Below are positions 16,004 through 23,756 of a stretch of DNA of 38,388 nt, piece after piece. The DNA is from a candidate division WOR-3 bacterium. GTDB taxonomy: Bacteria > Hydrothermota > Tepidihabitantia > Tepidihabitantales > Tepidihabitantaceae. The stretch is from NCBI GenBank assembly GCA_016867815.1, contig VGIR01000023.1:1-38388 (forward strand). The letters are read 5' to 3'. Both the position numbers and the translations under genes were made by a program. Positions within the stretch are counted from its first letter, which is position 1, and every line of letters starts with the position of its first letter. Below the pieces are notes generated by a model. It was not told the DNA's origin. It was given only the letters and a program-made list of their open reading frames with translations, and ran no database searches.

Positions 16004-16981
16004 TTGCCCGATAAGCTGAAGTTCGGTTTCTACTGGGCGGCCTCGTGCGGAGGCTGCGAGATCGCCGTTCTCGATACCAACGAGAAGATCCTCGACGTGA
16101 TTGCGCGGGCCGACATCCTGCTTTGGCCCGTGGCCATCGACACTAAGTACTCGGACGTGAAGACTATGCCGGACCGTCACATGGACGTCTGTTTCTTCAA
16201 CGGGTCGATCCGAAACTCGGAGCAGGAGGAGCTTGCCCACCTGCTGCGGAAGAAATCCAAAGTGATGATTGCGTTCGGTTCGTGCGCCCACCACGGCTGC
16301 ATTCCCGGTCTCGCCAACCTCTCCGGCCGCGAGCAGATTCTCAAGCACGTCTACACTGCGGAACCGTCGGTCGTCAACCCAGATGGCACCAGGCCGCTGG
16401 TGCAGGGCAAGGTCCCGGAGGGCGACGTGACGCTGCCCGAGTTCTACGACAAAGTGTCCCCGCTGAAACACGTGGTCGATGTTGACTACTACCTGCCGGG
16501 ATGCCCGCCCGCGGTGTCGGGAATTCTGGACGCGGTCACGGCCATCTTCCAGGGGACACTCCCGGCCAAAGGCAGCATACTCGCACCGGCCAAGGCATTG
16601 TGCGACGAATGCGACCGGAACCAGCATTTGGCGAAGAAGATGCCGGACGTCAAGAGGGTGTGGGAAGTCCAAGCCGACCCGGCAGTCTGCTTCCTCGAGC
16701 AGGGCATCGTTTGTATGGGGCCGGCGACCCGTGGCGGATGCGGCCAGCGGTGCATCAACGGCAACTGGCCGTGCACGGGTTGCATGGGGCCGACGCCTGA
16801 TGTTTCAGACCAGGGCGGCAAGATGATCTCGGCGCTCGCGTCAGTGCTGAGAGTGGACGACGAGAAGAACATCGCCGGGCCGGAGACCGAGAAGCTGCTG
16901 GCCAAGGTCAAGGATCCGGTCGGCACGTTCTATATGTACGGTTTGGCCGACGCGACCATCGGCAGCCGGAGACAGAGGTGA
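16004..16981 (+). CDS. NiFe hydrogenase small subunit, group 3 (MvhG/HydD-like)
   Basis: 325 residues, TTG start set by GGAGGA 5 nt upstream. Proximal cluster ligands are visible in SCGGCE (near 14-19), GSCAHHGC and PGCPP. A cysteine-rich C-terminal part (CDECDRN; CFLEQGIVCMGP; GGCGQRCINGNWPCTGCMG) should bind two more Fe-S clusters. No twin-arginine signal, so it is cytoplasmic, as in group 3 enzymes. It relays electrons between the NiFe site and an unknown acceptor. Overlaps the large subunit gene by 4 nt. Confidence 0.9.
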   Translation: MPDKLKFGFYWAASCGGCEIAVLDTNEKILDVIARADILLWPVAIDTKYSDVKTMPDRHMDVCFFNGSIRNSEQEELAHLLRKKSKVMIAFGSCAHHGCIPGLANLSGREQILKHVYTAEPSVVNPDGTRPLVQGKVPEGDVTLPEFYDKVSPLKHVVDVDYYLPGCPPAVSGILDAVTAIFQGTLPAKGSILAPAKALCDECDRNQHLAKKMPDVKRVWEVQADPAVCFLEQGIVCMGPATRGGCGQRCINGNWPCTGCMGPTPDVSDQGGKMISALASVLRVDDEKNIAGPETEKLLAKVKDPVGTFYMYGLADATIGSRRQR

Positions 16982-18435
16982 GCACACGGATCACGATTGA
17001 CCCGATTACCCGGCTTGAGGGTCACGGCAAGATAGAGATCTTCCTCGACGACAAGGGGGAGGTTGAGAACGCCTATCTGCAGGTGCCGGAGTTGCGCGGG
17101 TTCGAGCAGTTCTGCGTGGGCCGCAAGGCCGAGGACATGCCGCAACTAACCAGCCGCATCTGCGGCGTCTGCCCGGTTGCGCACCACTACGCCGGGGTGA
17201 AGGCGCTCGACGAAGCCTTCGGGGTCAAGCCTACCGAGACCGCGCTCAAGCTGCGCGAGTTGATCTACTGCGGCTACATTGTCTACGACCACGTTCTGCA
17301 CTTCTACTTCCTGGGCGGGCCGGACTTCGTGGTCGGGCCGGACGCGCCCAAAGCGAAGCGGAACATCCTTGGTGTCATCGAGAAGGTCGGCGTGGACACG
17401 GCCAGGGAGGTCATCAAGCACCGGGCCTACGGCCAGCGGATAACCGAGATTCTCGGGGGCAAGCCGACCCATCCGGTGAGCGGCGTACCCGGCGGCCAGA
17501 CCAAGGTGTTGACCGAGGAGGGCCGCAAAGAGATCGAGACGATGTCGAAGTCCTGCGTGGAATTCGCCAAGTTCACCCTGCAGATGTTCGAGGACGTAGT
17601 CCTGAAGAACCCGGCCTACATGGCGCTGATAACAAACCCGAAGCTCGGTCATGCGGTGTACAACATGGGCATGGTGGATGAGAAGAACCGGGTGGCTTTC
17701 TACGACGGGAAGGTCCGGGTCACCGACCAGAAGGGCAAGGAGTTCGTCAAGTTTGAGGGCCGCGACTACCTGGACCACATCGCCGAGCACGTGCTCGACT
17801 GGAGCTACGTCAAGGCCACCTACCTCAAGGCGATCGGCTACAGGGGCCTGGTTGACGGACCGGACTCGGGTCTCTACCGGGTCGGCCCGCTCGGCCGGCT
17901 CAACGTCGCCGACGGGATGGCAACGCCCGGAGCCGACGCGGCCTACCGGAAGCTGTTCGACACCTTCGGCACTAGGCCGGTCAACTCGACGCTGGCTTAT
18001 CACTGGGCCAGATTGGTGGAACTGCTCTACGCCTCGGAACGGGCGCTGGAACTCGCGACCGACCCCGGGATAACCGGAACCGACATCCGGAACATGAAGT
18101 TCGACATGAAGGCCGAGGGCGTCGGCGTGGTCGAAGCAGCTCGCGGAACGCTTTTCCACCACTACCGTCTGACCGAGGACCGGATGATCGAGAAGGTGAA
18201 CCTGATCGTCGCGACGACCAACAACAAGGGCCCGATCTGCATGTCCGTCCGCGAGGCGGCGAAGGAACTGATTCACAAGGGCAAAGTGGACGACGGGCTG
18301 CTCAACACGGTCGAGATGTTCTTCCGGGCCTACGATCCGTGCTTCGGGTGTGCTTCGCACGTGCTGGGTCGGCCCACGGTCGTGATTGACGTCCGGAACC
18401 AGTATGGTGATCTGGTACAGCAAATGGCCGGCTAG
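16978..18435 (+). CDS. NiFe hydrogenase large subunit, group 3 (MvhA/HydA-like)
   Basis: 485 residues, GTG start overlapping the small-subunit stop (GTGA). The NiFe ligands are RICGVCP near 60-66 and DPCFGCASH near 453-461; TRLEGHGKIEI at the start is also typical. A 24-residue tail follows the last His and would need cleavage by a maturation protease. It oxidises or produces H2 in the cytoplasm. No diaphorase, MvhD, Hdr or maturation genes (hypA-F, protease) are in the window. Confidence 0.93.
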   Translation: MSTRITIDPITRLEGHGKIEIFLDDKGEVENAYLQVPELRGFEQFCVGRKAEDMPQLTSRICGVCPVAHHYAGVKALDEAFGVKPTETALKLRELIYCGYIVYDHVLHFYFLGGPDFVVGPDAPKAKRNILGVIEKVGVDTAREVIKHRAYGQRITEILGGKPTHPVSGVPGGQTKVLTEEGRKEIETMSKSCVEFAKFTLQMFEDVVLKNPAYMALITNPKLGHAVYNMGMVDEKNRVAFYDGKVRVTDQKGKEFVKFEGRDYLDHIAEHVLDWSYVKATYLKAIGYRGLVDGPDSGLYRVGPLGRLNVADGMATPGADAAYRKLFDTFGTRPVNSTLAYHWARLVELLYASERALELATDPGITGTDIRNMKFDMKAEGVGVVEAARGTLFHHYRLTEDRMIEKVNLIVATTNNKGPICMSVREAAKELIHKGKVDDGLLNTVEMFFRAYDPCFGCASHVLGRPTVVIDVRNQYGDLVQQMAG

Positions 18436-20490: not shown

Positions 20491-22614
20491 ATGTTCATAC
20501 TGACGGCGCTTGCAGTTCTGCTGTCCGGGACCGCGCAGTGGCGGGCCTATACCAACACCAACTTCATCAACGACATGGTGGGGACCGACTCGGTGCTTTA
20601 CCTTGCCAGCTACGGCGGAGTCGCCGCGCTCGACATCCGGCCTGGTCCGATGCTGCGGCGGACCTTCGTCAACACCGACGGACTGCCGACTATCCGGTGT
20701 CTCTGCATCGGCCGGGATGCGTCCGGCAACCTCTGGGTCGGGACCGACGGCGGTGGACTGACTGTGATTGAGCCGGGCAATGGGCGCGTCTGGCAGTACC
20801 GTCCAAGCGACATCGCGTTGAGAGTAAGGGCTCTGACCTTCGATGGGACCAGAGTGCTTTGCGGTTCTGACCAGGGCCTGTACATGATTGAGACCCGGGG
20901 CACGCTGCTCGACTTCGATGATGACAGCATCGTTCGATTCACCACGACACGGGTCCCGGAACTGCTCAGCGACCAGATACTCTGCATAGGGGCGTTTGAC
21001 CAGTACTGGGTCGGCACCAACCGTGGAGTCGCGGCCGTGGACCGCAACTTCCAGACGTGGACGCCGTACCGCCAGCCATTCGGTGATTCGGTTCGGGCAG
21101 TTGCCGTGTGGCACGACAGCCTGCTCATTGCCACCGATTCCGGGCTGGCCATCCGGGAGAGCGCGGCTTTCCGTCCGGTCGTTGCTTTCGGGGAGCCGAC
21201 CGCCGTCCACGACCTCGCTGTATCGGGAACGAGGATCTATATTGCGACTCAGGTCGGGCTCTATGAAGGAGACGAGGCCGACTCCGCCCGGTTCTCCGTA
21301 ATCCTGAACGAAGACACCCGCGCCCTGCATTTTGCCGATGCCTTGTGGGTGGGGTGCGGTGGCAACGAACTGCAAGGGTCCGGTCTGCGCTATGCGTACT
21401 CGGGTCAGTCCTGGAACTCGTATCACAACAGCGGCATCTGGTCGGCGGCGATTTCCGATTGCGCAGTGGATTCGGCCGGTGGCATCTATCTTTGTCACTA
21501 TGATGCGCCGATATCCGCGATCGATTCGACCGGCAGGGTTTCGCTGCACTGGGGCGTGCTGCCGCGTCCGTTCCAAGTGAGGGTCGATTCCAAGGGACGG
21601 GTCTGGCTCGCCCACTTCGCCAGTGACGGCGGTTTGTCGGTGTACGATCCCTCCTACGGTACTTGGCAGAAGGTGCAGTGGGGCGCATCGTCCAGTTGGA
21701 ACATCATTGATGCATTCGGTCTGGACCAGAACGACACGAAGTGGGTGTTCAACGGTGGGGCTGCAGTGGTGGCGGTCGACTCCACTCTCCGACAGACGGA
21801 GTTCCAGATCCCGGGCCTGGGGCCTCCGCCGGGCGGCCTCTATGAGTTCGCGTTCGACTCGCGTGACCGTGTCTGGTTGGGGCTGAATGTCGGACTGGTG
21901 ATGATCGACTACGCGCGGACGCTGAGCGACCGTTCCGACGATGCGTACGCGATTGTGTCCAGTGGGCTGCCGTCGGCCGAGGTCAGGTCGGTGGCAGTTG
22001 ACGGTCAAGACAACGTCTGGGTCGCTACCTCGAGCGGTGCGGCGGTATGGGATGGCGCATCGTTTCAGGTCTTCTCGACGGTCAACAGCGGCATTGTTGC
22101 GAACAACGTCTACCGCGTCCGGGTAGATGCATCCGACCGGGTCTGGCTGCTGACCGAGGACGGGCTCTCGATCTACGACCAGGTAACCCGGAACTGGACG
22201 AGCTTCACACCCCAGAATAGCGGGCTGATTGCCAATCCGCAGGAAATCGTCGGGTTCTACTCGGCTATGGCGCTGAGCGACGAACTCGGACTGGGACTGA
22301 TCGGGTCGCAGGGCGGGCTCTCGGTCTATGACTACGCGGTGGACCCGGAGAGCACTGCCGAACATCTCCGAGTCTACCCAAACCCGTGTGTTCTCGGTGT
22401 GCATACCGGTGTGGTGATTGACGAGCTTCCCTACGATGCGACCAAGGTAGAGGTGCGGACGCTTTCCGGACGGCCGGTAGCGGAGTTGCGGGTCGAGCGT
22501 GCCCGCCATCAGGCCGTCTGGCGGCCAAGTGGCCAAGCCAGCGGGCTCTACCTGCTGGTTGTGAGCACTCCGCGCGGGGTGCGGGTCGAGCGCGTGGCGC
22601 TGGTCAGACCTTAG
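20491..22614 (+). CDS. Secreted two-component-regulator-type beta-propeller protein with C-terminal sorting domain
   Basis: 707 residues. A short signal peptide (MFILTALAVLLSGTAQW) is followed by repeated propeller blades with the recurring pattern (N/Q)xWVG/ATxxG (NLWVGTDGGGL, QYWVGTNRGVA, NVWVATSSGAA) and VWLG/VWLL variants. From about 624, LRVYPNPCVLG and the following beta strands to ARHQAVWRPSGQASGLYLLV resemble FlgD-Ig-like/type IX secretion sorting domains. No kinase domain is present, so it is a secreted or surface protein of unknown role. The 761-residue antisense frame across it is a shadow. Confidence 0.85.
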   Translation: MFILTALAVLLSGTAQWRAYTNTNFINDMVGTDSVLYLASYGGVAALDIRPGPMLRRTFVNTDGLPTIRCLCIGRDASGNLWVGTDGGGLTVIEPGNGRVWQYRPSDIALRVRALTFDGTRVLCGSDQGLYMIETRGTLLDFDDDSIVRFTTTRVPELLSDQILCIGAFDQYWVGTNRGVAAVDRNFQTWTPYRQPFGDSVRAVAVWHDSLLIATDSGLAIRESAAFRPVVAFGEPTAVHDLAVSGTRIYIATQVGLYEGDEADSARFSVILNEDTRALHFADALWVGCGGNELQGSGLRYAYSGQSWNSYHNSGIWSAAISDCAVDSAGGIYLCHYDAPISAIDSTGRVSLHWGVLPRPFQVRVDSKGRVWLAHFASDGGLSVYDPSYGTWQKVQWGASSSWNIIDAFGLDQNDTKWVFNGGAAVVAVDSTLRQTEFQIPGLGPPPGGLYEFAFDSRDRVWLGLNVGLVMIDYARTLSDRSDDAYAIVSSGLPSAEVRSVAVDGQDNVWVATSSGAAVWDGASFQVFSTVNSGIVANNVYRVRVDASDRVWLLTEDGLSIYDQVTRNWTSFTPQNSGLIANPQEIVGFYSAMALSDELGLGLIGSQGGLSVYDYAVDPESTAEHLRVYPNPCVLGVHTGVVIDELPYDATKVEVRTLSGRPVAELRVERARHQAVWRPSGQASGLYLLVVSTPRGVRVERVALVRP

Positions 22615-22641: not shown

Positions 22642-22806
22642 CTATGGCCGGGCCGCCCGGTGGTAGGGCGCGGACTTATGCTTCGGTCTCTCCTCGGTCG
22701 GTTCTTCCATGCACGAATCGAAATAGCGGCACTGGGAGCAGCAGTCTTCGGACAGTTTGCTCTTGGCCCGGCAAAGCTCGTAGCCAGAGCAAGCACGACA
22801 ACACAT
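22642..22806 (-). CDS. 54-residue protein with duplicated CC-x2-C-x5-C knuckle
   Basis: Short gene with an excellent ribosome binding site: AGGAGGT (22821-22815) 8 nt before ATG 22806; stop TAG at 22644-22642. The product begins MCCRACSGYELC and continues to CCSQCRYFDSCM. Eight cysteines at 2, 3, 6, 12 and 22, 23, 26, 32 form two identical CC-x2-C-x5-C motifs exactly 20 residues apart; the last 20 residues are charged and Pro-rich. It likely binds zinc or an Fe-S cluster. I do not recognise a named family. It follows the agmatinase-family gene on the same strand after a 116-nt gap and converges with the propeller gene. Confidence 0.8.
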   Translation of the reverse strand: MCCRACSGYELCRAKSKLSEDCCSQCRYFDSCMEEPTEERPKHKSAPYHRAARP

Positions 22807-22846
22807 GGTTGGTGACCTCCTTGGTTAGGTGAAACGGGGAAAGGGG

Positions 22847-22922: not shown

Positions 22923-23756
22923 TTATTGCGTGGTGGAGAGCAGCAGGCAGAGCTCTCGGGTCAGCTCCGCTGCCGTGGCGGCGCCGGCTGAAGGCTGCAT
23001 CGCTCTCGGGCAGACCTCGACCAGGTCGCAACCGACAACCCTGAGCCCGGCGAGACCGGCGAGAGACAGCGCGAGGTCGCGGTAGGAACATCCGCCGGGT
23101 TGGGGTGTCTGCACGTCCGGCATCGCGCCCGGGTCAAGCACATCAATGTCCAACGTCACATAGACTGGACGGTCCCCGATCGCGGAAAGCACTTGCTTGA
23201 CCGGCGTCAGCACCTCGAATGGGAACACATTCCGTTCGGACATCTCAGCGGCATGGGAGAAGGATCTGATGCCGAGTTGGAAGAGCCGTTCCCTCGGGAT
23301 TGTGTCCAGCACGCGCGCCATAGCGGTGGCATGGCATACACGCTCGCCCAGGAAATCCTGGCGCAGATCGGAATGAGCGTCATACTGGATCACGCACAGG
23401 TCAGGCAGTCCTCTGGCGAGTTCAGCTATGATGGGGGCGGTGATTGTGTGCTCGCCGCCAAGCGCGAGCTGTTTCGCCCCGCTTGCCGTACTCCGCCGGG
23501 TTGTTTCAGCAATGAGGTCCAGCGGAGCAGCGGGGGTCGGGAAAGTGAAGGCAAGGTTGCCGGCATCGTGGATATTGGTTCCCGAAATGTCACGTTTCTG
23601 GAAGGGGCTGAATGACTCGATGTTGTCCGCGGCCGCGCGTATGGCGTCCGGTCCGAACCGCGCACCGGGAACAAAAGAGCTGGTCCGGTCAAGCGGCATT
23701 CCGACAACGATAACGCTCGCGTCGGAAGCGCCCGCCGTCGCGTAGTATAGCGCCAT
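22923..23756 (-). CDS. speB: Agmatinase/arginase-family ureohydrolase
   Basis: 277 residues from ATG 23756. The binuclear Mn site is visible: GGEH (H103), DAHSD (126-130) and LDIDVLDPG further on. SFVPGARFGPDAIRAA near the start matches agmatinase-type proteins. It probably hydrolyses agmatine to putrescine and urea; formiminoglutamase or another guanidine substrate cannot be excluded. The start overlaps the 3' end of the GT39-like gene and lies 11 nt after a -10 box; the longer open frame upstream is GT39-like coding sequence in another frame. Confidence 0.88.
   Translation of the reverse strand: MALYYATAGASDASVIVVGMPLDRTSSFVPGARFGPDAIRAAADNIESFSPFQKRDISGTNIHDAGNLAFTFPTPAAPLDLIAETTRRSTASGAKQLALGGEHTITAPIIAELARGLPDLCVIQYDAHSDLRQDFLGERVCHATAMARVLDTIPRERLFQLGIRSFSHAAEMSERNVFPFEVLTPVKQVLSAIGDRPVYVTLDIDVLDPGAMPDVQTPQPGGCSYRDLALSLAGLAGLRVVGCDLVEVCPRAMQPSAGAATAAELTRELCLLLSTTQ

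Follow-up and report, generated by a model that had tools for sequence, protein, structure and literature searches.

The window analysed here, a 38,388-nucleotide stretch of a candidate division WOR-3 genome (contig VGIR01000023.1), contains on its minus strand a 54-codon open reading frame that is a real, selected protein-coding gene. Our best explanation, held tentatively and at a little less than an even chance, is that the product is a small protein with two four-cysteine sites, each perhaps occupied by a [4Fe-4S] cluster, and that it would partner, in a metal- or redox-dependent manner, the protein that is made along with it, here agmatinase.

Coding evidence and properties of the product

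The features that bear on this gene are the following.

22806..22642, stop included, minus strand: CDS of the 54-residue double-knuckle protein, recognized by its ATG start, its orthologues and dN/dS
22816-22822, minus strand: Shine-Dalgarno sequence AAGGAGG, 9 nt ahead of the ATG, invariant in five congeners
22771..22803, minus strand: knuckle 1, CCRACSGYELC (C2, C3, C6, C12), cysteines invariant
22711..22743, minus strand: knuckle 2, CCSQCRYFDSC (C22, C23, C26, C32), cysteines invariant
22645..22710, minus strand: variable tail, net charge +1 here and net basic across most of the type A family
22923..23756, minus strand: agmatinase (arginase family), the 5' neighbor, 116 nt upstream of the 54-residue gene, start set from relatives
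20491..22614, plus strand: Regulator-propeller (Reg_prop) protein, a convergent neighbor in most related loci

The translation, MCCRACSGYELCRAKSKLSEDCCSQCRYFDSCMEEPTEERPKHKSAPYHRAARP, has its cysteines at positions 2, 3, 6, 12, 22, 23, 26, and 32, the repeated arrangement of eight that the initial annotation had described for a 54-residue frame; that annotation omitted the minus strand, the invariant agmatinase neighbor, a tandem paralogue with an acidic tail, and the fusions to an ATPase considered below. In a multiple alignment of five congeners, AAGGAGGT is without any change, the stretch ahead of the Shine-Dalgarno sequence is divergent, identity jumps at the Shine-Dalgarno sequence and the ATG, and high conservation then extends through the coding part to a point just short of the stop codon. 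A spurious frame or a conserved noncoding element might be suspected, given that the frame is short and that the alternative frames here are partly open too, but this reading is contradicted by pairwise dN/dS ratios of 0.05 to 0.26 over the gene among congeners, by distant homologues that share its start, motif, and Shine-Dalgarno sequence, and by the fusion of the knuckle domain to a larger protein; we regard it as virtually discounted.

The protein has no hydrophobic signal or segment, and the sequence points to a small, soluble, probably cytosolic product. No Pfam or NCBIfam model matched above chance, PHROGs gave chance-level matches alone, and among PDB sequences no solved structure matched above chance, so that the description of the protein as new looking holds; that so short a frame would usually be missed is plausible. 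Two AlphaFold2 models were of low confidence (mean pLDDT of 65 and 59), and a Foldseek search with the first returned no match. The low-confidence prediction contains short helices at residues 9 to 14 and 29 to 32, and this bears on the possibility of a disulfide-locked helical hairpin resembling the twin-CX9C (CHCH) proteins. The spacing C2-x9-C12-x9-C22-x9-C32 is that of a twin CX9C motif, and chance-level matches were obtained to complex I subunits (E values of 1.6 and 4.6), which we take to be of the CHCH type, and to UPF0203 (E value of 1.3). Such a hairpin is nevertheless highly improbable: the predicted helices are short, a proline directly follows the third cysteine in about half of the type A and B knuckles of the 98-core set described below, the four additional cysteines are as invariant as those of the CX9C register, and an export signal is lacking.

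Agmatinase and the local gene order

The upstream gene encodes an agmatinase, with a PF00491 score of 213 bits, a TIGR01230 score of 221 bits against a cutoff of 174, a conserved start, and the metal-site motifs GGEH, DAHSD, and DIDVLD. At all 22 loci, the knuckle gene lies directly 3' of the agmatinase gene on the same strand, and the other flanks vary between families; the gap between the two genes is 0 to 1 nt in three genomes, about 5 to 55 nt in most, and about 100 to 200 nt in the genus of the window and in genome G020. The convergent Reg_prop gene is not part of this unit. Conserved synteny inside a single order or phylum may in part have been inherited rather than selected. Two further observations were made at these loci. 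In two genomes of the WOR-3 order, genes for a UVR-motif protein and an ATP:guanido phosphotransferase (McsA/McsB-like) stand ahead of the agmatinase and knuckle genes (L040:2064-4614 and L051:7140-9644); in the window itself, positions 16004-18435 hold two genes that by eye resemble those for [NiFe]-hydrogenase small and large subunits, and many relatives have such genes close to their knuckle locus as well.

We rejected the candidate role of obligate subunit, cofactor, or chaperone of agmatinase because four genomes (G007, G010, G011, and G015) keep the enzyme, show no knuckle gene in the downstream sequence read, and have no profile match elsewhere; in G015 that sequence amounts to 184 nt up to the contig end. 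Neither gene was found in G014 and G018, both of which are incomplete assemblies. A direct part in agmatinase catalysis is thus unlikely from the distribution of the genes, and the different neighbors seen in Omnitrophota count against an agmatinase-specific role.

Family signature and distribution in the WOR-3 order

When 61 genomes were searched at the protein level, orthologues turned up in each of the six congeners sampled and in relatives from the same family and order. A profile search placed the knuckle gene in 22 of 28 genomes from the order, whereas the 119 further genomes searched in the phylum gave no match. Both knuckles are kept by homologues, with an intact frame in close relatives, and all aligned order-level members retain the eight cysteines. 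A second copy (B) often directly follows the first (A) in these relatives; A and B stand in tandem in six genomes, and B occurs alone in two (G025 and G026). Copy B, exemplified by MCCDICPYYDEC..CCPECPDYKDC, is strongly acidic in both core and tail, whereas the tail of copy A is mostly basic.

Across 98 distinct cores, the double knuckle conforms to the consensus CCxxCxx[YF]xxC, a spacer of 6, 9, 10, or 14 residues, and CCxxCxx[YF]xxC again, and in both knuckles position 8 is aromatic in 97% of cases. The 20-residue offset between knuckles reported in the initial annotation is thus exact in the window protein but is not a property of the family. The eight cysteines are retained in all 98 cores, a result that the scan itself demands, and independent support for their retention comes from the profile matches and the members read: the cysteines are invariant in alignments of all four architectures (types A, B, C, and D), the sole loss among the profile-found members read is a change of C23 to Y (L123/L198, one assembly), and no cysteine-to-histidine exchange, and no histidine at a ligand position, was seen among the members read or aligned. 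The common CCxxCxx[YF]xxC pattern supports the proposal that the knuckle pair arose by internal duplication; at the other positions, however, identity between knuckles 1 and 2 is weakly above that of a shuffled register (38 of 1,000 shuffles were as good), and the two may for this reason have converged instead.

The four architectures can be summarized as follows.

Type A: basic tail, agmatinase linked
Type B: acidic tail, in WOR-3, Omnitrophota, and Auribacterota
Type C: WTCETKWYRG linker and basic tail, in Omnitrophota and Auribacterota, mostly divergent from rnfC
Type D: fused to the C terminus of an ExeA/TIGR03015-like ATPase

Relatives in Omnitrophota and Auribacterota

A cysteine-spacing scan of 84,980 species, which demands an ATG immediately before CC and which types C and D consequently escape, matched 32 contigs. 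The true proteins among them belong to Omnitrophota, to genomes of the WOR-3 type, and to a single Auribacterota genome; low-complexity cysteine runs or truncated frames account for the remaining contigs. The Omnitrophota copies recovered in this way are of type B, and at all 12 Omnitrophota loci with a readable upstream gene they lie 3' of a gene for a small secreted DUF5666-like protein (L060, L061, L062, L064, L065, L069, L071, L074, L088, L122, L123, and L124). At several of these loci the type B gene is followed by a DUF4912 gene or by one for a lysine 2,3-aminomutase-like radical SAM protein, and at some loci an ArsR-family regulator gene stands upstream. The last arrangement, together with the presence of eight cysteines inside the first 32 residues, would suit a protein that stores thiols or buffers metal in the manner of a metallothionein and has no defined partner. 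The fixed spacing, the invariant aromatic residues, and the conserved neighbors exceed the needs of a store, the window protein contains no CxC motif and does not match the bacterial metallothionein family PF02069 (E values of up to 10), and the ArsR-type regulator need not be a metal sensor; we accordingly consider a simple store improbable.

Type C (CCETCQVYWTCETKWYRGEKGEENICCPVCNYYKTC, with a basic tail) is found in Omnitrophota and in 1 of 44 Auribacterota genomes. At 30 Omnitrophota loci (L140-L169), in which the CETKWYRG linker is conserved, rnfC is divergent in 22 and a gene for an MFS transporter is convergent in 27. Type D occurs in eight Omnitrophota genomes (L170-L177), where the knuckle domain forms the C terminus of an AAA_22/TIGR03015-like ATPase; these versions of the XrtA/PEP-CTERM-associated, ExeA-like ATPase thus add a double knuckle beyond the TIGR03015 match, which covers residues 1 to 265 and scores 306.5 against a cutoff of 324.5. 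A divergent double-knuckle variant, CCVQCKMFWDCSTRPDNLAREGESHCCSSCGNFELC, with another linker was also noted at three Omnitrophota loci (L178-L180). In raw counts, uncorrected for relatedness, seven of the eight sampled Omnitrophota genomes with type B also carry type C, whereas the profile search matched C or D in 56 of all 285 Omnitrophota genomes, and the sole Auribacterota genome with type C likewise has type B. With the A-B pairs of the WOR-3 order and the C-B pairs of Omnitrophota, these raw counts are suggestive of a tendency of basic-tailed and acidic-tailed members to co-occur.

Beyond these groups, a sample of 297 genomes from the phylum to which a Desulfovibrio metagenome-assembled genome (G440) belongs gave no match, and 294 from the phylum of an Isosphaeraceae metagenome-assembled genome (G439) gave one weak match (L215) without a knuckle pair; both results are weak evidence of absence. 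A viral origin was rejected, as all 13 IMG/VR pattern matches were low-complexity cysteine runs, and tblastn searches of phage and plasmid sequences gave chance-level matches.

The metal-binding hypothesis

The invariance of the cysteines makes the proposed two-site metal scaffold well supported, and metal sites are favored because eight thiols are invariant at fixed spacing in short, probably cytosolic proteins. We suggest that each CCx2Cx5C knuckle constitutes one metal site, in which C3, C6, and C12 (C23, C26, and C32 in the second knuckle) would bind metal in the manner known for CX2CX5C elsewhere, with the neighboring C2 (C22) as the fourth thiolate; our preferred guess is that each knuckle carries one [4Fe-4S] cluster, with zinc a close second. 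Two structural Zn(Cys)4 sites, in a miniature zinc adaptor for protein or nucleic acid whose tail charge would choose the partner, are a serious possibility, if one that we think will probably not prevail. The inclination toward zinc stems from the small size of the protein, which fits zinc knuckles, and from the modular fusion to the ATPase; CxxC pairs are present, and the oppositely charged tails of types A and B would suit such an adaptor. Against zinc, vicinal cysteines such as those of each knuckle are unusual on a single zinc ion; cysteine is not exchanged for histidine among the members read, and the pattern of the CCHC zinc knuckle, CX2CX4HX4C, is not found. Moreover, the uses of CX2CX5C found in the literature are as [4Fe-4S] ligands.

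The [4Fe-4S] reading is placed slightly ahead of zinc on the basis of the absence of cysteine-to-histidine exchange and of the Rnf neighborhood of type C. Precedents for the core motif exist. In SPASM enzymes, CX2CX5C ligates an auxiliary [4Fe-4S] cluster (PMC5715301, PMC10452713), in AhbD it is a [4Fe-4S] motif (PMC10452713), and the isolated N-terminal domain of RseC, which contains it, binds an oxygen-sensitive [4Fe-4S] cluster (PMC11729352). The core is common to the knuckle protein and the SPASM domain of radical SAM enzymes (CX2CX5CX3C as part of a seven-cysteine pattern), but the knuckle protein is free-standing, has no radical SAM domain, repeats the core twice and invariantly, places its fourth cysteine adjacent to the first (CC) rather than in a CX3C after the last, and has no Pfam SPASM match (E values of up to 10); one Omnitrophota member gave a weak, suggestive match to the radical SAM maturase AmcB (E value of 0.09). 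RseC/RnfF has a link to Rnf, as does the type C neighborhood, but is a membrane protein with two transmembrane helices and one motif, in contrast to the 54 residues, two motifs, vicinal cysteines, and absent membrane segment of the knuckle protein. The 2[4Fe-4S] ferredoxins are likewise about 55 residues long with two repeat-related four-cysteine motifs, but their classical CX2CX2CX3CP spacing is replaced here by CCX2CX5C, and no Pfam ferredoxin model matched. Known 2[4Fe-4S] ferredoxins devote more protein to their two clusters than the roughly 34 residues available here, and this counts against the Fe-S reading.

Under the Fe-S reading that we prefer, the double-knuckle core would be a compact docking module and the charged tail would set partner specificity, and the protein would pair, in a metal- or redox-dependent manner, with the protein it is made alongside, here agmatinase. 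We infer metal binding, cluster type, and partner role alike from these comparisons. The double knuckle is used in a modular fashion, both free-standing and as an ATPase C terminus, and since the neighbors of types A, B, C, and D differ, a general docking or redox module is indicated in preference to catalysis in polyamine metabolism. A bolder form of this proposal, which we think unlikely though worth stating, is that the family represents a novel minimal two-cluster Fe-S fold with vicinal-cysteine [4Fe-4S] knuckles, a redox module for agmatinase, the Rnf neighborhood, and the ExeA-like ATPase whose basic and acidic versions are paired.

In summary, the 54-residue protein belongs to an unannotated small-protein family that current family models do not capture and that extends over three bacterial phyla, most of whose members are uncultured. 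Concrete candidate partners are provided by its link to agmatinase and by its fusions to an ATPase, and if each knuckle does hold an Fe-S cluster, few natural proteins with two clusters would be as small.
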